Origin: Arthrobacter sp. SLBN-100
GTDB taxonomy: Bacteria > Actinomycetota > Actinomycetes > Actinomycetales > Micrococcaceae
NCBI RefSeq assembly: GCF_006715305.1
Contig: NZ_VFMY01000002.1
Span: 124,001 to 188,000 of the forward strand
DNA length: 64,000 nt
Reading direction: 5' to 3'
Position 1 is the stretch's first letter; every line of letters starts with the position of its first letter. Of the stretch, positions 8,796 through 18,761 are shown piece after piece. Under the pieces are notes generated by a model. That model was not told the origin of the DNA. It ran no database searches and saw only the letters and a program-made list of their open reading frames with translations. The position numbers and the translations under genes are program-made.

Positions 8796-9656
8796 ATGAA
8801 TCAAAGTAAGGTGGCTGGCTTTCGAGTGCGCGAGGCTGAAGAGGCGCCCCCGCAGTTTACAGTCGTTGGGATCAGTGGAATTGGTGAGGTCGCCGCCGGC
8901 GATGACCTCCTGGTGCTGATAGGGAACGCCGTCGAAGCGGAAATTTCCGCCGGGGACGTCGTCGTGGTGACAAGCAAAATAGTTTCTAAGGCCGAAGGAC
9001 GTTCTCTGCAGGCAGACAGCCGCGAAGATGCCATCACGGCCGAAACAGTGCGGCTGGTTGCCAGCAAACCACACCCCGGGGGTGTGACCCGGATCGTCCA
9101 GAACAGGTTGGGACTGGTGCTCGCCGCCGCGGGCGTCGACGCGAGCAATACCCCTGACGGCACGGTGCTGCTCCTGCCGGAGAACCCGGATGCGTCAGCT
9201 AGGGCCCTGTGCATGGGGTTGCGCCAGCGGTTCGGTTTCGACCTGGGGGTGATTATCACCGACACGCTGGGCCGCCCTTGGCGCCTGGGGCAGACCGATC
9301 TGGCTATCGGGGCCGCGGGAATGGCGGTAACCCATGATTTGCGCGGGACGCGGGATGATTTCGACAGGCGCATGGATGTCACCATCACAGCGGTGGCGGA
9401 TGAAATAGCAGGTGCGGCGAACCTTGTGCTGGGCAAGACCTCTCGCCGGCCGGTCGCCGTGGTCCACGGCATGGATCACCTGATTCGGCCCCTGGAGGAA
9501 CCCGGGGCGCGGACCCTGATCCGCCCTGCAGACGAGGACCTGTTCCGTCTCGGATCGGCAGAAGCGCATCTGGAAGGATTCCATGAAGGTTTCGCGGCAG
9601 GACAAAGGTCAACCGTTGAATCCGTAGTTACCGCAGAGGGCAGTGCTACCGCATGA
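8796..9656 (+). CDS. cofE: Coenzyme F420-0:L-glutamate ligase
   Basis: A 286-residue CofE (FbiB N-terminal type), which adds gamma-linked glutamates to F420-0 with GTP. Features are IGEVAAGDD and [17 protein letters not shown] near the N terminus and [17 protein letters not shown] in the middle. It is a stand-alone ligase without the nitroreductase-like domain that mycobacterial FbiB carries, so the dehydro-F420-0 reduction step is not visible here. The ribosome site before ATG 8796 is weak and an in-frame GTG at 8811 is possible. The stop overlaps cofD by 4 bases. A truncated second cofE lies at 18758-18907. Confidence 0.93.
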
Positions 9657-10669
9657 GGATAACCGTGCTGGCAGGTGGTGTGGGCGGGGCGCGTTTCCTG
9701 CGGGGGCTGCGCCACCATCTGCGTCGGGTGATGCCGGATGGTGCCGGCGGAACAACGGCCGAGATCACCGCCGTCGTCAACACGGGGGATGACATGTGGC
9801 TGACGGGCCTGCGGGTCTGCCCCGATCTGGACTCGGTGATGTATGCCCTCGCGGGCGTCAACGACGAATCGCGGGGCTGGGGCCGGGCCGGCGAAACGGA
9901 GCGCGTCAGCGCCGAACTGGCCGCCTACGGCGTTGGCTGGCCATGGTTCACCCTCGGTGATCTAGACCTGGGCACCCACATCACCCGCTCGCATCTGCTA
10001 CGCGCCGGGCTGCCGTTGAGCCAGGTCACCGGGCGGCTGGCGGCACGCTGGGACATAGGCGTGGAGCTACTGCCCATGAGCGACGAGGAAGTGGAAACCC
10101 ATGTGGCGCTGGAAGGTTCCACACCCGATGCACCCCAGGACATTGTGCACTTCGAGGAATGGTGGGTCCGGCACCGCGCCCGGCGCCCGGCCCGGGAGTT
10201 CATCCAGGCCGGACTCTCAGAGGCAGCCCCGGCGCCGGGGGTGCTGGCGGCGATTTTCGGTGCCGACGCCGTCATGTTGGCCCCGTCGAATCCGGTGGTG
10301 TCCATCGGCACGATTTTGAATGTCCCCGGCATACGGGAGGCCATCCAAGCGACACCGGCCCCGGTCGTGGGAATCTCCCCCATTATTTCCGGTGCTGCCG
10401 TCCGGGGCATGGCAGACGCCTGCCTGGCCGCGATCGGCGTCAGGACCGGCGCCGATGCGGTGGCCCTGCACTATGGTGCCCGTTCCGCGGGCGGGATCCT
10501 GGATGCCTGGTTGATTGACAGCGCCGATGCGGGGCTAGCCGATCTTATCGCCGGTGCAGGGGTCCGGCCGGTTGTTGTTCCGCTGTGGATGAACGACGTC
10601 CAGACCAGCGCGGAACTTGCCGCAACGGCCTTGGAAGCTGCTTCTGCAGTGGCAACGGCAGAGGCCTAG
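9653..10669 (+). CDS. cofD: 2-phospho-L-lactate (or PEP) transferase, F420 biosynthesis
   Basis: A 338-residue CofD/FbiA homologue starting with the typical [15 protein letters not shown] and containing [12 protein letters not shown] and [13 protein letters not shown]. It transfers the phospholactyl or phosphoenolpyruvyl group from the activated nucleotide made by CofC onto Fo. The length matches the family. ATGA overlap with cofE indicates one transcript and coupled translation. The 3' side faces remnants of cofC and fbiC on the other strand. Confidence 0.93.
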
Positions 10670-11311: not shown

Positions 11312-12330
11312 TCATGACGGGCCGCCGGTCAGGTCGCCATGCGCAACAAGCGCAGGGTCTTGCATATCGGGCCGGCGCCGTTTGACCTCCCGGGCGAGGT
11401 CGAAATACGCGGTTCCGGGCAGGTCCGGGTGGATGCCGCCCAGGCAGATCTCCGTGGCACCGATGAACCAGGCCTCGTCCACCCGGTCCCCGACCTGCGG
11501 CATCGCGAGCGTCAAGGCATCCTCATCCGTGCCGCGCTGCGCGAAGGCGCAGAACTGGCAGCAGGTGTAGCAGACGTTGGTGATATTGATGTTGCGGTTC
11601 ACGACGTAGCCCACGGCGTCCCCGACGCTGTTTTTCCGGACCCGTTCGGCTTGCGCGGCGAGGGCGTCCAGATCGGTGCCCTCCGCGGAGAGCAGGCTCA
11701 GATAGTCCGCGTCCGGCAGACCCGCGGGATTCTCCTCGGCCCGGGAAAGGGCGGCCCGGACCTCCCGGCTCTGCCCCCACCGGCTGCACCGGCAATCCTG
11801 ACGCGCGGACTTCTGCACGCGAGGCCTCCCAGTCCGCATAGACCGCGTCGAAATCGCTGCGCCCGTCCCCGATGCGCCCCACAGTGTCGATCTCCGTGTG
11901 CAGATTCACCCGTCCGGGCCCGGCCGCCGCCCAGTCCGGATCCGGTTCCTGCCACGGCAGGCCGGACGGCGGCCGGCCCTCGACGGCCAGTCCGTCGGGC
12001 CCGGCGAGGGCACGGACCTGGGGAAGGACCCGCGGATCGAGCCAGGGTTCCTCGGCGCCGACGAAATGCGGGTGTGCAGTCAACTGTTCCCACAGGGCAA
12101 AGCCGGTGCCGGCGGTGAGCCGGGCCAGGCCCTCAACATGGGGCCAGGGGCGTTCGGGGTTGACATGATCCGGTGTCAGGGGCTGACGCCGGGCCAGTCA
12201 TCGATACCGGCCCGGACCAAAAGGGAGAGCTCGTTGGCTTCCGTGAGGTTGGGCGGGGCCTGCATCCGCGCCCGGGCCCCAGGACCAGGCGCACCACGGC
12301 GGCGGCGGCGGCCCTACTCGGTCACCGACT
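11312..12330 (-). pseudogene. fbiC: Truncated and frameshifted fbiC (Fo synthase) remnant, CofH cysteines retained
   Basis: The minus strand encodes roughly residues 310-600 of an FbiC: the end of the CofG half ([18 protein letters not shown]), the linker (LTAHPHFVGAEEPWLDPRVL, VNLHTEIDTVGRIGDG) and the start of the CofH half, with VVNRNINITN followed by the radical-SAM motif CYTCCQFC (CX3CX2C). The CofG radical-SAM part and the rest of CofH are gone, and frameshifts occur around 12190 and 11820. It is notable because it keeps exactly the cysteine motif that the full-length FbiC at 13780 lacks. Confidence 0.85.
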
Positions 12331-12835: not shown

Positions 12836-13513
12836 ATGGGCACGTTCAAGATTGCAGTAGTTGGCGGATCCGGGCCGCAGGGCAAGGCCTTGGCCTACCG
12901 CTTCGCCCACGCAGGGCACACCGTGGTGCTCGGATCCCGGGCAGCCGGGCGCGCCGAGGAGGCGGCGGCCGCCGTCAACGCTAAACTTCAGGGCGTTGGC
13001 GTTGGCGTTGGCGTCGTCGGAGCCGCGGAGAATAACGCTGCGCTGCAGGGCGCTGACGTCGTTCTTCTGGCCGTTCCTTACAAGGGCCACGCGGAGCTTG
13101 TCGCCTCACTCGCCGACAATCTCGCCGGCAAGGTCCTCATCAGCTGTGTCAATCCCTTGGGCTTCGATCAGCGGGGACCCTACGGGCTGGATGTTGCGGA
13201 AAGTGCAGCTGAGGAGGCAGCTCGTCTGGCGCCCAATGCAACTGTCGTAGGGGCCTTCCACCACCTGTCCGCGCCCAATCTGTGGGCGTCGGCTGACCTG
13301 CTTGATCATGAGGATGTCCTCGTCTGTGGCGATGACCCGGAGGCAAAAGCCGTCGCCATCGAGCTGGCGGCTGCCGTTACCGGACGCCCAGGTATCGATG
13401 CCGGCGACCTGCGGCTTGCCCGCCAGCTGGAACCGTTGACAGCTGTCCTGATCAGCATCAACAAACGGTACAAGATCCGCTCGGGCGTGCGTATCAGCGG
13501 CCTGACTGAATAA
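12836..13513 (+). CDS. npdG: F420-dependent NADP oxidoreductase (F420H2:NADP+ oxidoreductase, Fno/NpdG)
   Basis: A 225-residue Rossmann protein with the dinucleotide motif AVVGGSGPQG at residues 7-16, VPYKGHAEL and VNPLGFDQRGPYGLD, matching Fno/NpdG proteins. It moves hydride between NADPH and F420; in catabolic clusters such as picrate degradation it makes F420H2 for an F420-dependent reductase. The likely partner here is the LLM oxidoreductase at 22699-23583. A short GGCGTT tandem repeat near 12994-13015 encodes alternating Gly-Val (VGVGVGV) in a surface loop and may vary in length. TTAGGAGCATC precedes ATG 12836. Confidence 0.9.
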   Translation: MGTFKIAVVGGSGPQGKALAYRFAHAGHTVVLGSRAAGRAEEAAAAVNAKLQGVGVGVGVVGAAENNAALQGADVVLLAVPYKGHAELVASLADNLAGKVLISCVNPLGFDQRGPYGLDVAESAAEEAARLAPNATVVGAFHHLSAPNLWASADLLDHEDVLVCGDDPEAKAVAIELAAAVTGRPGIDAGDLRLARQLEPLTAVLISINKRYKIRSGVRISGLTE

Positions 13514-13779: not shown

Positions 13780-16158
13780 ATGTCTAAGCCGGCCGTTCTG
13801 AATCCTGCCCCCCTCACTCATGCTCTCGCTCGTCTTGAAGACACGGGTGAGACGGACCTTGCCGGAGCCACGGTGCTCTTCGGAGCTCGAGGCGACAACC
13901 TCGACCGGTTGCTGACCGTTGCGTCGCGACTCCGCGACGAGGGCCTTGCGCGCGCCTCTCGAGCGGGCATCATCACGTATTCGAAGAAGGTGTTCCTCCC
14001 CGTTACGCAGCTTTGCCAGGACCGCTGTCACTACTGCGTCTTCGTCGAGACGCCAGGCGGCCTGCTGAAAAAAGGGATCCCCACCTACCTGCCGCCGGAA
14101 GAGATCCTTCGCATCGCTCGCGAGGGGGCAGCGCTCGGCTGCAAGGAGGCGCTCTTCACACTCGGCGACCGCCCCGAGAACCGCTGGCCGGTCGCGCGGC
14201 AGTGGCTCCACGACCACGGCTACACCTCCACCCTCGACTACATCGGCGCGATGGCCGATCTAGTGCTCACGGAGACCGGCCTTCTGCCGCATCTCAACCC
14301 CGGCGTCATGTCGTTCGCCGAGCTGCAGCGCCTCCGCCCGGTCGCCGCGTCGATGGGCATGATGCTCGAGACCACGGCCACACGGCTCTGGAGCGAGCGC
14401 GAGGGAGTGCACTTCGGGTCCCCGGACAAGGATCCTGCTCTGCGGATGCGGGTGATCGACGACGCCGGCCGCTCCCGGATCCCATTCACCACCGGGGTCC
14501 TCCTCGGCATCGGCGAGAACGACGCTGAGCGCGCCGAGGCACTCTTCGCCATCCGGGCGTCGCACGAGCGATACGGCCAGGTGCAGGAGACCATCGTCCA
14601 GAACTTCCGTGCGAAGCCGGGCACCGCGATGCAGAACGAGACCGACCTCGCTCTCGAGGAGTATGTCGCCGCCGTCGCAGTCGCCCGGATTGTCATGGGG
14701 CCCGACCACACCATCCAGGCGCCGCCGAACCTCACCGACCTCACCGAACTCCTGCTGCTCGTGCGCGCAGGCATCGACGACTGGGGCGGCGTCAGCCCGC
14801 TCACCCCCGACCATGTTAACCCCGAACGGCCCTGGCCCGAGATCGAGACGCTCGCCAAGCTGACGGCGCACGCCGGCTTCACTCTGCGCGAACGACTCAC
14901 GGCGCACCCGGCCTACCTGACGGATCCAGAAACCTGGCTGGATCCCCGCGTCGCCCCCGCCGTCACCGCTCTGGCCGAGCCGGTGTCCCTACTCGCCGCC
15001 GAGAGCACACGCGTGAGGCCCGCGCCCCCGGCGGCGCGCGGGCCGCGTTGCCGGCCTGCCGACACTGTCGCTGCTGCTGCTGCCACCACCGTTCCTCCCG
15101 CCGACCGCGCCGTGGCCGCCGCACTCACCAAAGCTTCGACCGACCCGGCCGCTCTGACGGACGCTGAATATGTCTCCCTCCTTACCGCCCGCGGCGACGC
15201 CCTCGACGCGGTAACGGCACTGGCCGACGAGGTCCGGTCGGCAGCGGTCGGTGACACACTCACCTACGTCGTCAACCGCAACCTCGACTCGTCGCTCTAC
15301 AGCGAGGGCCTCACCGACGACATGGTCCGGCGACTCGTCGAGGAAGCCATCACCCTCGGTGCCACCGAAATCTGCGTCCAGGGCCCGATCGACCGGGCGC
15401 TGCGGGGCACGGCCTACCTCGACCTGGCTCGAGCCATCCGCACAGCCGGGCCCGACCTCTCACTCCACGCCTACCGCCCCACGGAGGTGCTCGACGGGGC
15501 ACATAGGATGGGCGTCAGCGTCGAGGTCTTCCTCGAAGGACTGCGGGAGGCAGGTGTGACGAGCGTTCCCGGTACCGGGGCGCGGATTTTGGACGACGGC
15601 GTGCGCGCGCTTCTGAGCGAGGGCACCGATCCGCCGGTCGACGAATGGATCCGGCCCATCAAGGCCGCTCACCGGGCAGGCCTTCGATCGACGGCGACGA
15701 TCGTCTACGGTCATGTCGAGACGCCCGCCCAGATCGTCGCGCACCTGCGCCGACTGACCCGGATCCAGGACGAAACCGGTGGCTTCTCGGAGTTCATCGC
15801 GATGCCGTACGTGCCGTTCGACGTACCCTCCGGGGTGCGGGCGGCGGCTGGTGAAGGGCCGAGCCTCGAAACCTCGCGGGCACTCCACGCAGTCGCGCGA
15901 CTGATGCTGCACAGCAGGATCGACCACGTGCAGGCGGCCTGGACAAAGCTAGGCTTCCACCGCGCCAGGGCCGTACTTGCCGGTGGAGCAGACGATTTCG
16001 GCGGTCTGCTACTCGACGGCGCCATCTGGCCAGAGGCCGGCGGCGAGGGATACCGCGAGGCAACGCCGGGAGACGTCCAGCGGATCGCGGCCGCTCTCGG
16101 CCGCGAGGCGCGGGAACGCACCACAAGCTACACACTGGTCAAGGGGGAATTTGTGTGA
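13780..16158 (+). CDS. fbiC: FbiC-like Fo synthase, CofH half lacks its Fe-S motif
   Basis: A 792-residue CofG-CofH fusion. The CofG half is intact in its key part: C79-X3-C83-X2-C86 in QLCQDRCHYC, ready to bind the radical-SAM cluster. The CofH half is recognisable (VGDTLTYVVNRN near residue 500, GATEICVQG, VPGTGARILDD, TIVYGHVETP), but the 19 or so residues that should carry NVCYxGCRFCAF are absent; the sequence runs from VVNRN straight to LDSSLYSEGL. The usual HHSSPVYL-like segment is also changed, to VPFDVPSGVR. The frame is otherwise open, so this half has diverged as a protein. Canonical CofH makes the tyrosine adduct that CofG closes to Fo. The stop overlaps the next gene (GTGA). Confidence 0.88.
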   Translation: MSKPAVLNPAPLTHALARLEDTGETDLAGATVLFGARGDNLDRLLTVASRLRDEGLARASRAGIITYSKKVFLPVTQLCQDRCHYCVFVETPGGLLKKGIPTYLPPEEILRIAREGAALGCKEALFTLGDRPENRWPVARQWLHDHGYTSTLDYIGAMADLVLTETGLLPHLNPGVMSFAELQRLRPVAASMGMMLETTATRLWSEREGVHFGSPDKDPALRMRVIDDAGRSRIPFTTGVLLGIGENDAERAEALFAIRASHERYGQVQETIVQNFRAKPGTAMQNETDLALEEYVAAVAVARIVMGPDHTIQAPPNLTDLTELLLLVRAGIDDWGGVSPLTPDHVNPERPWPEIETLAKLTAHAGFTLRERLTAHPAYLTDPETWLDPRVAPAVTALAEPVSLLAAESTRVRPAPPAARGPRCRPADTVAAAAATTVPPADRAVAAALTKASTDPAALTDAEYVSLLTARGDALDAVTALADEVRSAAVGDTLTYVVNRNLDSSLYSEGLTDDMVRRLVEEAITLGATEICVQGPIDRALRGTAYLDLARAIRTAGPDLSLHAYRPTEVLDGAHRMGVSVEVFLEGLREAGVTSVPGTGARILDDGVRALLSEGTDPPVDEWIRPIKAAHRAGLRSTATIVYGHVETPAQIVAHLRRLTRIQDETGGFSEFIAMPYVPFDVPSGVRAAAGEGPSLETSRALHAVARLMLHSRIDHVQAAWTKLGFHRARAVLAGGADDFGGLLLDGAIWPEAGGEGYREATPGDVQRIAAALGREARERTTSYTLVKGEFV

Positions 16159-16640
16159 CGCTCGCCCACGCCGAGACTCGCACCGGCCTGCGAGAGGTCA
16201 AAACGGGAGTCGCGCGTCTGCCCGGCAGGTCCCTCGAGCCGGTCGTGATCGCCGCCGACCCGGCCGGCCTGGATCCCACCCTCGTCGCTGCCCTGCCGCT
16301 GCTAACGCGGTGGCGGCAAGTATTCATAACGGGCGCGGACGTCTCACCGGACGAGCTGCCCGACCGCTTTGCGCTCCTCGTCGCGCCCGGCCGCGAGACC
16401 GCGGTCGCTGCTGAGATGCGTGTCTCAGCTCTTATCGTGCTGGGCCCGGTTGCGCCGGATGTCCGTTGCCCAGTCCTCGTCATCGCCCCGCCCGGGTCAG
16501 CAACGGTTGAGCTAATCACCGCCTATGTGTGCTTCGCCGAGGCTGGACATCCCGCCGAGCAGGCGCATCTCATCGACTCGTTCCTGCGCGATCCGCGGCG
16601 GTACCCAGCCGGCAGCACGATCCCGCGAGCCCGGCCGTGA
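16155..16640 (+). CDS. Uncharacterised 161-residue protein between fbiC variant and BVMO
   Basis: Not recognised. GTG 16155 overlaps the fbiC stop and its own TGA overlaps the next start (GTGA in both cases), so it is coupled to both neighbours and is very probably a real gene. The middle consists of short hydrophobic beta-like stretches (EPVVIAADPAGLDP, FALLVAPGRETAVAA, VSALIVLGP, CPVLVIAPPGSATVELI), suggesting a small alpha/beta domain. The C-terminal part (FAEAGHPAEQAHLIDSFLRD) looks helical. There are no cysteine pairs, signal peptide or membrane segments. Its position suggests a role with the FbiC variant or the monooxygenase. Confidence 0.7.
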   Translation: MTLAHAETRTGLREVKTGVARLPGRSLEPVVIAADPAGLDPTLVAALPLLTRWRQVFITGADVSPDELPDRFALLVAPGRETAVAAEMRVSALIVLGPVAPDVRCPVLVIAPPGSATVELITAYVCFAEAGHPAEQAHLIDSFLRDPRRYPAGSTIPRARP

Positions 16641-18193
16641 CGGAGGCCAACGACACCCAGGCTCTACCCGCCGACGCGTTATTCTCCCTGACCGCCCCCA
16701 CGAACACCGCCGACACGGGCGCCGCTCCCGCCCTCATCGACACGGTGATCATTGGTGCCGGCTTTGCCGGCCTCGGCGCCGCGATCCGGCTCGCCCGATC
16801 CGGTGACCGGTCGTTCGTCGTGGTGGAGCGCGGCGACGACGTCGGCGGAACCTGGCGCGACAATGTATACCCGGGCGTCGCCTGCGACATCCCGTCGCAG
16901 CTATACTCGTTCTCCTTCCGGCCGCGCGCCAACTGGAGCCGCTTCTTCGCCCCCGGCGCCGAGATACTCGACTACCTGCAGGAGGCCGCCCGCGAGGAGG
17001 GCATCCTCCCGCATCTCCGCTTCTCGTCCGACGTGCTAGCGCTCGACTGGGACGACACCACCGCGACCTGGACGGTCGTCACCACGCGCGACAGCTATCG
17101 CTGCCGCTGGGTGGTCGTGGCGACGGGCCGGCTCTCCGAGAAGCGCATGCCCGCAGTGCCGGGGCTCCGCTCGTTCGCGGGCATCTTGGTCCACTCGTCC
17201 GAATGGCCGCGCGATCTCGACCTGGCCGGCAAGCGTGTCGGGCTCGTCGGCAGCGGCGCGTCGGCCGTGCAGATCCTGCCGCGCATCGCCGCGGTCGCCG
17301 ACGAGGTCGTTCTCTTCCAGCGTAGCGCCCCGTATGTCGTTCCCCGTGAGGACCGAGCCTATACCGAGGTTGAGAAGACCGGCTGGCTAGACGACCCCGG
17401 GTCCCTGGCCGAGCTCCGCGCCCGGATGTTCTGGGACTTCGAGGCCGGTTTCGCAGCAAGGCTCGGTGCCACTGGCCACCTCACCGGGCTTCGTGACCGC
17501 GCGCGGCGGAACCTCGAGGCGCAGATCCCCGACCCCGCCCTCCGTCGGGCCCTCACGCCCGACTACGAGGTCGGGTGCAAGCGGGTCGTGCTCTCCGATG
17601 ACTACTATCCTGCCCTGTTGCGCGAGTCGGTGCGCCTCGAGCAGTCGGCTGTTGCTGGCGTCGAGGGGAGCCGGGTCGAGGCGGCCTCAGGAGCGGCCTA
17701 TGACCTCGACGTGCTCATCGTGGCGACCGGATTCCGCTCGGCCCGGCCGCCGATCGCGCGCAGGATTCGAGGCCGCGACGGCCGCACCCTCGACGCCGTC
17801 TGGTCGAAGGGGATGGCGGCGCACAACTCCACGACCGTCGCTGGCTTTCCGAACCTCTTCGTCATCGACGGACCCAACGCCAGCCTCGGCCACAACTCTG
17901 CTGTGCACATGATTGAGTCTCAGATTGCGTTCGTTCTCGAGGCCCTCGGGTATCTGCGCCGCCGGGGGGTAGCCGTTTTTCACGTCCGGGCGGAGCGACA
18001 GGCCGCCTACGTTGCCGAAATCGACCGCTTGGCGGAGGCCACCGTCTGGCTCACCGGTGGCTGTCGCAGCTGGTACGTCGATGAGCGGAGCCGCCGGCTG
18101 ACCCTGCTGTGGCCGGACACCGCCTCGGCGTTCCGCGAGCGGCTCGCACGGTTCGACCCGGCCGACTACCTGCTCAGCGCGCAGACTGCCTGA
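16637..18193 (+). CDS. FAD-containing Baeyer-Villiger monooxygenase (type I)
   Basis: A 518-residue class B flavoprotein monooxygenase. It has a FAD-binding GAGFAGLGAA at residues 40-49, GGTWRDNVYPGVACDIPSQL, the Baeyer-Villiger fingerprint FAGILVHSSEWP (FxGxxxHxxxWP) near residue 180, and a second Rossmann motif, VGLVGSGASAVQIL, for NADPH. Such enzymes turn ketones into esters or lactones. GTG 16637 overlaps the upstream stop; an ATG-started frame from 16529 lies wholly inside the upstream gene and is less likely. The 3' end overlaps convergent cofC by 20 bases. A ketone substrate, with an esterase such as the 3440-4429 hydrolase acting next, is plausible but unproven. Confidence 0.9.
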   Translation: MTEANDTQALPADALFSLTAPTNTADTGAAPALIDTVIIGAGFAGLGAAIRLARSGDRSFVVVERGDDVGGTWRDNVYPGVACDIPSQLYSFSFRPRANWSRFFAPGAEILDYLQEAAREEGILPHLRFSSDVLALDWDDTTATWTVVTTRDSYRCRWVVVATGRLSEKRMPAVPGLRSFAGILVHSSEWPRDLDLAGKRVGLVGSGASAVQILPRIAAVADEVVLFQRSAPYVVPREDRAYTEVEKTGWLDDPGSLAELRARMFWDFEAGFAARLGATGHLTGLRDRARRNLEAQIPDPALRRALTPDYEVGCKRVVLSDDYYPALLRESVRLEQSAVAGVEGSRVEAASGAAYDLDVLIVATGFRSARPPIARRIRGRDGRTLDAVWSKGMAAHNSTTVAGFPNLFVIDGPNASLGHNSAVHMIESQIAFVLEALGYLRRRGVAVFHVRAERQAAYVAEIDRLAEATVWLTGGCRSWYVDERSRRLTLLWPDTASAFRERLARFDPADYLLSAQTA

Positions 18194-18761
18194 GCGCCTC
18201 CGCCGTCCGCCGGCCCAGCCGCCCCTCGAGCCGCTCGAGATCGGCCCAGGTGTCGACGTCCGAGCGCAGCCCCGAGGTCTCGTCGAGATCGAGCTCGACG
18301 TAACCCGCGGCGCCGTGCGCAGCACGCGAACCCTCGCCAAACGCGGGGCGATGCCGCTCCGGGTCGATGGCGGTGATTAACGTCGTGCCGGTTCCGGCTG
18401 CGTCTGCGACGAACGCCAGCTCCGCGGCTGACGCGAGCCACAGGGCGACCTCGAGTTCAGCCGACGCGAGAGCCGGCAGGTCGCCCTGGAGCACGGCCAC
18501 CTGGCCAGGGCCCGCCGCTTTGATGCCGTGAAGGACGGCTGCGGACAGCCCCCGGCCTGGATCCTGCACGGTCTCGGCGCCGAGAGCGCGGAAATCGGCC
18601 GCAGCGGCGTCGGAGGTGACGACAACGACGCGTCCCACCGGCAGCGCTGCAGCCACCGTGTCGAGGGCGATCGTACGCGCCAAGCCGGGATCACCCCCGA
18701 GGCGGGACTTCGCGGCCGCGGTGCCCTTGACCGGCACGACGACGGTCCAGGCGTCAGTCAT
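18174..18761 (-). CDS. cofC: 2-phospho-L-lactate/PEP guanylyltransferase, F420 biosynthesis
   Basis: A 195-residue CofC/FbiD nucleotidyltransferase. It starts WTVVVPVKGTAAAKSRLGG, the GTP-binding signature region, and contains QDPGRGLSAAV, LQGDLPALAS and RSDVDTWADLERL. It activates phospholactate or PEP for CofD. ATG 18759-18761 overlaps the stop of a truncated cofE reading frame (ATGA). It is the only intact cofC in the window and complements the cofE/cofD pair at 8.8-10.7 kb, although its sequence style matches the fbiC-BVMO block. Confidence 0.92.
   Translation of the reverse strand: MTDAWTVVVPVKGTAAAKSRLGGDPGLARTIALDTVAAALPVGRVVVVTSDAAAADFRALGAETVQDPGRGLSAAVLHGIKAAGPGQVAVLQGDLPALASAELEVALWLASAAELAFVADAAGTGTTLITAIDPERHRPAFGEGSRAAHGAAGYVELDLDETSGLRSDVDTWADLERLEGRLGRRTAEALRQSAR

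Follow-up and report, generated by a model that had tools for sequence, protein, structure and literature searches.

A cluster-less CofH half and an adjacent Baeyer-Villiger monooxygenase as a candidate replacement for radical-SAM CofH in F420 synthesis

In all studied producers of the cofactor F420, the deazaflavin Fo is made by two radical S-adenosylmethionine (SAM) domains, CofG and CofH, as stated in one review (PMC8498797). The same review describes how the radical CofH splits tyrosine to give a p-hydroxybenzyl radical, which adds to ribityldiaminouracil, and how the product reaches CofG by diffusion. A stretch of 64,000 nucleotides from Arthrobacter sp. SLBN-100 (contig NZ_VFMY01000002.1, positions 124,001 to 188,000; hereafter ‘the window’) carries a variant of the two-domain gene fbiC in which an intact radical-SAM CofG half is fused to a CofH half without the cluster cysteines. 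A gene for a type I Baeyer-Villiger monooxygenase (BVMO) lies close downstream. Among enzymes of the latter kind, phenylacetone monooxygenase (PAMO) converts phenylacetone to benzyl acetate (PMC3404926). Many actinobacteria appear to make F420 by a variant route that places a cluster-less CofH beside this oxygen-using flavin enzyme. A survey of the open-licence literature in PubMed Central (preprints and subscription papers were outside its scope) found no description of a cluster-less CofH or of a BVMO in F420 synthesis.

The variant FbiC and its clade

The variant fbiC gene (13780..16158, + strand), assigned from its open reading frame, NCBIfam models and an AlphaFold2 model, starts with ATG and runs for 792 codons with no internal stop. 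Its CofG half carries the cluster motif CQDRCHYC at residues 79-86 (14014..14037, + strand, located by motif reading) and passes the NCBIfam model TIGR03550 (462 bits, cut-off 213). This is the only CX3CX2C motif in the whole protein; the CofH half has none. Comparison with the canonical FbiC of locus L060 places the missing cluster loop at residues 497-532 (15268..15375, + strand), where VVNRN (497-501) is followed by LDSSLYSEGLTDDMVRRLVEEAITLGATEIC, ending at residue 532, and thus runs directly into LDSSLYSEGL. From VVNRN through GATEIC the variant has 36 residues and its canonical counterpart 54, a net loss of 18 by hand count. The CofH half falls short of TIGR03551 (332.4 bits, cut-off 374.1) and the whole protein falls short of the CofGH model NF006687 (982.6 bits, cut-off 1018). 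A sequence-only reading of the window had already described the open frame, the retained CofG motif and a gap of roughly 19 residues at the place of the second motif, and each of these points is borne out.

The changes extend beyond the loop, as seen when the columns of 52 cluster-less CofH rows are compared with those of 36 canonical rows. The canonical glycine at position 536 is lost in the cluster-less rows (the commonest replacement is alanine, at 35%), serine 566 becomes arginine in all of them, and glutamate 602 becomes arginine in 85%. By analogy with the wider family, these three positions probably belong to the SAM site. Because the three cysteines are gone and G536, S566 and E602 are changed, the view of the sequence-only reading that this half is dead as a radical-SAM enzyme is supported. 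That reading had also held that other substrate-side segments were altered, which is true of 17 columns fixed in the cluster-less rows only, whereas 77 columns are at least 90% conserved and identical in both groups. The picture suggested by these alignments is of a barrel that has dropped its cluster and SAM site and kept much of its core. The AlphaFold2 model of the variant, built with 57 sequences, has a mean predicted local distance difference test (pLDDT) score of 89.8. Averaged in blocks of ten residues, the score is 83-98 over residues 441-780. The top fold match of the model is the aminofutalosine synthase MqnE, and its barrel has the CofH-type fold.

Among the best 120 of 608 homologues of residues 480-792, none has a second CX3CX2C beyond that of CofG (two of the 120 are fragments without the CofG part), and the loss is therefore neither chance nor a local sequencing error. 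The source names among these best 120 of 608 include Arthrobacter, Pseudarthrobacter, Agreia, Rathayibacter, Frondihabitans, Conyzicola, Cryobacterium, Amnibacterium, Gryllotalpicola and Nocardioides; a clade of FbiC homologues without the second motif, as the sequence-only reading had envisaged, exists. Across 15 pairs of close relatives, the cluster-less CofH half has ratios of nonsynonymous to synonymous substitution rates (dN/dS) of 0.11-0.34, compared with 0.04-0.15 in the CofG half; four pairs of canonical CofH halves give 0.06-0.11. Purifying selection on the cluster-less half is therefore clear, though somewhat weaker than on canonical CofH.

In a protein of 1022 amino acids from Arthrobacter wenxiniae (P0059) and at locus L013, a CofC domain precedes the cluster-less FbiC in a single frame. 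Micrococcaceae bacterium Sec5.1 carries two different cluster-less FbiCs (P0006 and P0057), both recorded with a longest contig of 5,426,886 bases. The fbiC genes deposited for Arthrobacter nitrophenolicus SJCon (L039) and Frondihabitans sucicola (L056) are split into several frames, by sequencing error or by real decay.

Linkage to a Baeyer-Villiger monooxygenase

The BVMO gene of the window (16637..18193, + strand; 518 amino acids) starts with a GTG that overlaps the stop codon of a 161-amino-acid gene, which in turn separates it from fbiC. Its association with cluster-less CofH was evaluated in a set of loci gathered by FbiC alone, comprising the best 80 of 89 confirmed loci and the window. 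A first sorting of these 81 loci gave 38 fused cluster-less, 34 canonical and nine other cases. Within the last group, L098 and L099 proved to be split cluster-less loci, L089 and L090 are canonical (CTFKCRFC), and L091-L095, where the retrieved DNA shows no CofH, are left unclassified. Four loci with broken or partial frames (L039, L056, L086 and L096) were confirmed as cluster-less, and the final tally is 40 cluster-less, 36 canonical and five unclassified loci. A BVMO gene lies beside FbiC/CofH in all 40 cluster-less loci, window included, and in 0 of the 36 canonical loci, two of which (L079 and L084) have a contig end right behind fbiC.

An order-wide sample of 149 genomes yields the same division, although some species may be represented in both sets of loci. 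An FbiC/CofGH match is present in 42 of its genomes: 17 are cluster-less (window included), 24 are canonical and one (G244) is partial, canonical by similarity but with the motif off the contig. The BVMO gene adjoins cofH on the same strand in 17/17 cluster-less and 0/24 canonical cases. Only three of the cluster-less genomes (the window's own, G294 and G307) have cofG fused; in 12 others it stands as a gene of its own on the opposite strand, and in two it lies on another contig. Even in these 14 loci the cluster-less cofH and the BVMO gene stay together, with BVMO following cofH. When the order sample was searched in the reverse direction, a BVMO scoring at least 445 bits was found in 17 genomes, 16 of them cluster-less and the other being G340. 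The seventeenth cluster-less genome, G294, has a partially aligned BVMO of 325 bits, and 10 further genomes hold only more distant BVMOs (39-42% identity). In a family sample of 197 genomes, a BVMO occurs within 1.5 kb flanks of three of three cluster-less and none of four canonical loci.

A crude gene caller applied to 40 cluster-less and 34 canonical loci recovered FbiC in 39 and 34 and BVMO in 32 and 0, respectively, and found no other conserved neighbour family in more than 13 of these cluster-less loci. Its eight misses of BVMO reflect its choice of frame, since BLAST finds the gene in 40/40.

The distances of FbiC and BVMO correlate across 34 loci with a Mantel r of 0.90, which none of 2000 permutations reached; for this comparison and that of residue conservation, the BVMO start was left untrimmed in 18 of 40 rows. 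Trees were made by quick searches with Shimodaira-Hasegawa-like approximate likelihood ratio support only, and the CofH-half trees were built without the loop. A branch with support 100 divides the 127 rows of the CofH-half tree into 60 canonical and 67 cluster-less ones. The CofG tree, which includes the order sample, from which one row with a very long branch (L152) was dropped and in which five CofG-only rows were not counted, requires four changes between the 66 partners of cluster-less CofH and the 59 canonical rows, and a single clade of these partners is rejected (approximately unbiased (AU) test, p 0.00012, 130 rows). In the earlier set without the order sample, the fused cluster-less rows by themselves had formed one clade (support 99). 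One CofH clade combined with several CofG changes indicates that cluster-less CofH and BVMO behave as a unit that has been joined to several CofG lineages. An independent second origin in Actinomycetospora (L098/L099), whose CofG falls among canonical rows, was considered and not adopted, as one clade with the other cluster-less rows is not rejected in the first tree (AU p 0.133); it is the enlarged set with the order sample that rejects a single clade of CofG partners.

The BVMO itself retains the hallmarks of its family. The fingerprint FxGxxxHxxxW between two Rossmann motifs is present in all 40 proteins, and G6-G8-G11, F146, G148, H152, W156, G171 and G173 are near-invariant, as are D50, K281 and R282. 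By sequence, the nearest solved structures are PAMO (1w4x) and steroid monooxygenase (4ap3), with expectation values (E) of about 1e-67; a Pfam FMO-like model also matches. The segments GVACDIPS and GCKR of the window protein align with GARCDIES and GTKR of PAMO, which places a catalytic aspartate and arginine at the positions of PAMO D66 and R337, which we take to be its catalytic pair. By fingerprint and catalytic residues the protein is thus a type I BVMO, and Baeyer-Villiger activity is predicted.

F420 genes around the variant

If the variant cannot perform the radical reaction, an ordinary CofH might be supplied from elsewhere, as the sequence-only reading had suggested. Profile searches do not support this option. 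No ordinary CofH exceeds the NCBI cut-off of 374.1 bits in the window's own genome, where the CofH family matches the cluster-less half with 276.6 bits and, with 124.8 bits, C2:135360-135713, part of the frameshifted canonical-type fragment described below; two other matches score below 29 bits or are the CofG half. Likewise, a CofH over the cut-off occurs in 0 of 33 genomes of cluster-less relatives. Eight radical-SAM matches on contig C1 were scanned as candidates. Seven proved to be MoaA, MiaB, HemW, BioB, two LipA and an Rv2578c-family protein, and the eighth, L005, matched nothing at E 1e-60; one further match, at C1:3110614, lies outside those eight.

The remaining F420 pathway is generally present, since CofD exceeds its cut-off in 32 of 34 genomes, the window's own included (G199 has none and G225 a partial match only). 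In the window, cofE, for F420-0:L-glutamate ligase (8796..9656, + strand; TIGR01916, 211 bits, cut-off 180.65), is followed by cofD, for 2-phospho-L-lactate transferase (9653..10669, + strand; TIGR01819, 332.1 bits, cut-off 257.45). An NADPH-dependent F420 reductase (12836..13513, + strand; TIGR01915, 194 bits, cut-off 149.8) precedes fbiC, and a cofC gene of the 2-phospho-L-lactate guanylyltransferase family (18174..18761, - strand; TIGR03552, 116.8 bits, cut-off 105) follows the BVMO gene. With CofC, CofD and CofE all over their cut-offs, the window holds an F420 biosynthesis gene cluster. At locus L025, the gene upstream of fbiC encodes an F420-dependent glucose-6-phosphate dehydrogenase (579 bits, cut-off 420), relatives of which occur in L026 (99%), L039 (95%) and L051 (58%).

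Between cofD and the reductase gene, 1.5 kb upstream of the variant, lies a frameshifted internal fragment of a canonical-type fbiC (about 11312..12271, - strand), recognized by sequence reading and comparison. It is truncated at both ends, its CYTCCQFC motif is still visible, and it is 48% identical to L060 over residues 317-616. The arrangement looks as if the variant had taken over the job of a decayed canonical-type gene in its own cluster. The window, and with it the F420 genes, belongs to the smaller second contig (C2:124001-188000), and the gene cluster looks acquired, because 11 genomes of the same genus in the family sample have no FbiC match. In the Actinoplanes loci L092, L094 and L095, CofG-only genes (frames of 421-492 amino acids) adjoin cofD and cofE, and no CofH was found in about 21 kb.

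The 161-amino-acid gene between fbiC and the BVMO gene (16155..16640, + strand), whose GTG start overlaps the fbiC stop, was recognized as a degenerate alpha/beta hydrolase relative by alignment with intact neighbours. Its protein has no serine elbow (GxSxG) at the aligned place and no Pfam hydrolase match, and its model resembles alpha/beta hydrolases weakly (best Foldseek E 0.012). Relatives are 69-73% identical in L025, L026 and L039 and 41% identical in L056. Alpha/beta hydrolase genes that exceed Pfam cut-offs lie between cluster-less fbiC and BVMO at L027:12364-13041, L032:12406-13302 and L067:5960-6547, and L073:12175-12762 has one at the same interval by reading (GYSLG). Five Agreia loci have a degenerate hydrolase-related domain fused to the N terminus of BVMO, and the BVMO start overlaps the fbiC stop directly in several other loci (e.g. 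L037, L043 and L045). The 161-amino-acid gene was therefore rejected as an essential partner, being confined to the window, L025, L026, L039 and L056, with an intact hydrolase in four loci and a fused N-terminal domain in the five Agreia loci. The sequence-only reading had expected a clade next to both this gene and the BVMO; the clade and the BVMO as its common partner hold, but the 161-amino-acid gene is kept only near the window's lineage. A hydrolase beside the BVMO would suit an ester product, yet it cannot be essential.

A candidate oxygen-dependent route and its relation to known systems

The cluster-less CofH half and its neighbouring type I BVMO are probably a pair of proteins that takes the place of radical-SAM CofH in Fo/F420 synthesis, a proposal drawn from sequence comparison to which we give a probability of about 0.75. 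It is favoured because the cluster and SAM site are lost while purifying selection is kept, because no backup CofH is found, and because the BVMO is always adjacent, whether or not CofG is fused. In the proposed route, BVMO would use NADPH, O2 and FAD to convert an arylmethyl carbonyl compound formed from tyrosine, either 4-hydroxyphenylpyruvate or 4-hydroxyphenylacetaldehyde, to a 4-hydroxybenzyl ester, by analogy with the action of PAMO on phenylacetone. The ester would collapse to a p-quinone methide, which would alkylate 5-amino-6-ribitylaminouracil, bound in the cluster-less barrel, at C5 and so give the same intermediate as that of radical CofH. The intact radical-SAM CofG half would then close the ring to yield Fo. 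If the intermediate passes freely from one half to the other, as FbiC is reported to allow, CofG could use the same compound when another enzyme makes it. The intact alpha/beta hydrolases at some loci fit an ester product, and the other precursor proposed in the sequence-only reading fits as well and is incorporated here. As a whole, this explanation is the best available and is likely; the ester and quinone methide steps in particular are tentative. Equally tentative is the broader idea that the deazaflavin core can be reached by another, O2-dependent route, in which a former radical-SAM enzyme has turned into a polar alkylation catalyst fed by a dedicated BVMO.

Several points weigh against this proposal. 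Compared with canonical CofH halves, the cluster-less half has roughly double the dN/dS, and most loci either lack the hydrolase or hold a degenerate form of it. Nor is the BVMO family wholly confined to genomes with cluster-less CofH, because G340 holds a member at 46-47% identity and has no FbiC match. We found no paper that reports F420 or Fo in these species and know of no BVMO that acts on 4-hydroxyphenylpyruvate, and the real donor may not derive from tyrosine. The G340 BVMO (L176, G340:C1:1150000-1166000) lies about 0.8 kb from a putative TetR-type regulator, identified by reading.

In one alternative, BVMO and cluster-less CofH join a different aromatic compound to the pyrimidine, yielding a non-standard F420 analogue. 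The 17 columns fixed only in the cluster-less group indicate a changed pocket, and BVMO could process a donor other than tyrosine. However, CofD exceeds its cut-off in nearly all of the genomes, CofC, CofD, CofE and the F420 reductase of the window belong to ordinary families, the CofG half passes its own model, and an F420-dependent glucose-6-phosphate dehydrogenase stands beside fbiC at L025, with relatives at three more loci. We consider such an analogue unlikely. For the same reasons of operon setting, CofD distribution and dehydrogenase, ordinary Fo is the likeliest product, and the modified deazaflavin that the sequence-only reading had offered is rated below it.

The division of labour could also differ, such that the cluster-less CofH only binds or channels the pyrimidine and coupling is performed by BVMO itself or by an unlinked enzyme. 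In that case BVMO would not serve as a Baeyer-Villiger enzyme, and its target would be the tyrosine nitrogen or a late intermediate. Enzymes of the FMO-like type are capable of hydroxylating amines, and the Pfam FMO-like match extends to this BVMO; retention of the type I fingerprint and of the GCKR arginine, together with the barrel residues common to cluster-less and canonical CofH, makes this version quite improbable. Least credible of all is that FbiC is decaying or non-functional and the BVMO an incidental neighbour. The broken canonical-type fragment upstream and the interrupted frames of L039 and L056 could be read in this way, but the dN/dS values of 0.11-0.34, the high model confidence, the width of the clade and the BVMO linkage in both locus sets already contradict it.

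Should the replacement pair be confirmed, a lineage would have exchanged radical C-C bond formation for O2-dependent, two-electron flavin chemistry in a core cofactor pathway, and a type I BVMO would gain a role in primary cofactor synthesis. F420 production could then need just one oxygen-sensitive domain, which would be relevant to heterologous F420 supply. Annotation of such genes as ‘CofG’ or ‘FO synthase’ would mask a different enzyme.

Compared with described systems, the locus would represent a variant of the known F420 pathway, with possibly new chemistry for the CofH step. It shares with canonical FbiC or CofG plus CofH the two-barrel CofGH architecture, the intact CofG half, the company of CofC, CofD and CofE in the operon and the 77 conserved CofH-half columns, and differs in the missing cluster cysteines, the changes at G536, S566 and E602 and the ever-adjacent BVMO. 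MqnE (6xi9) is the only solved sequence relative of the variant (residues 528-787, E 1.9e-22); however, MqnE is a radical-SAM enzyme and has glycine and glutamate where the window protein has P536 and R602. The BVMOs have the fingerprint in common with PAMO and steroid monooxygenase, but those of the window type form a separate subfamily linked to F420 genes, and the Agreia protein is extended at its N terminus by a domain of about 180 amino acids. Precursor variants such as 3-phosphoglycerate-containing F420 (3PG-F420) are similar in being lineage-specific changes in one step of the pathway. According to the F420 review (PMC8498797), variants of that type change the substrate choice of CofC and CofD, whereas here the deazaflavin-forming step would change its class of enzyme.

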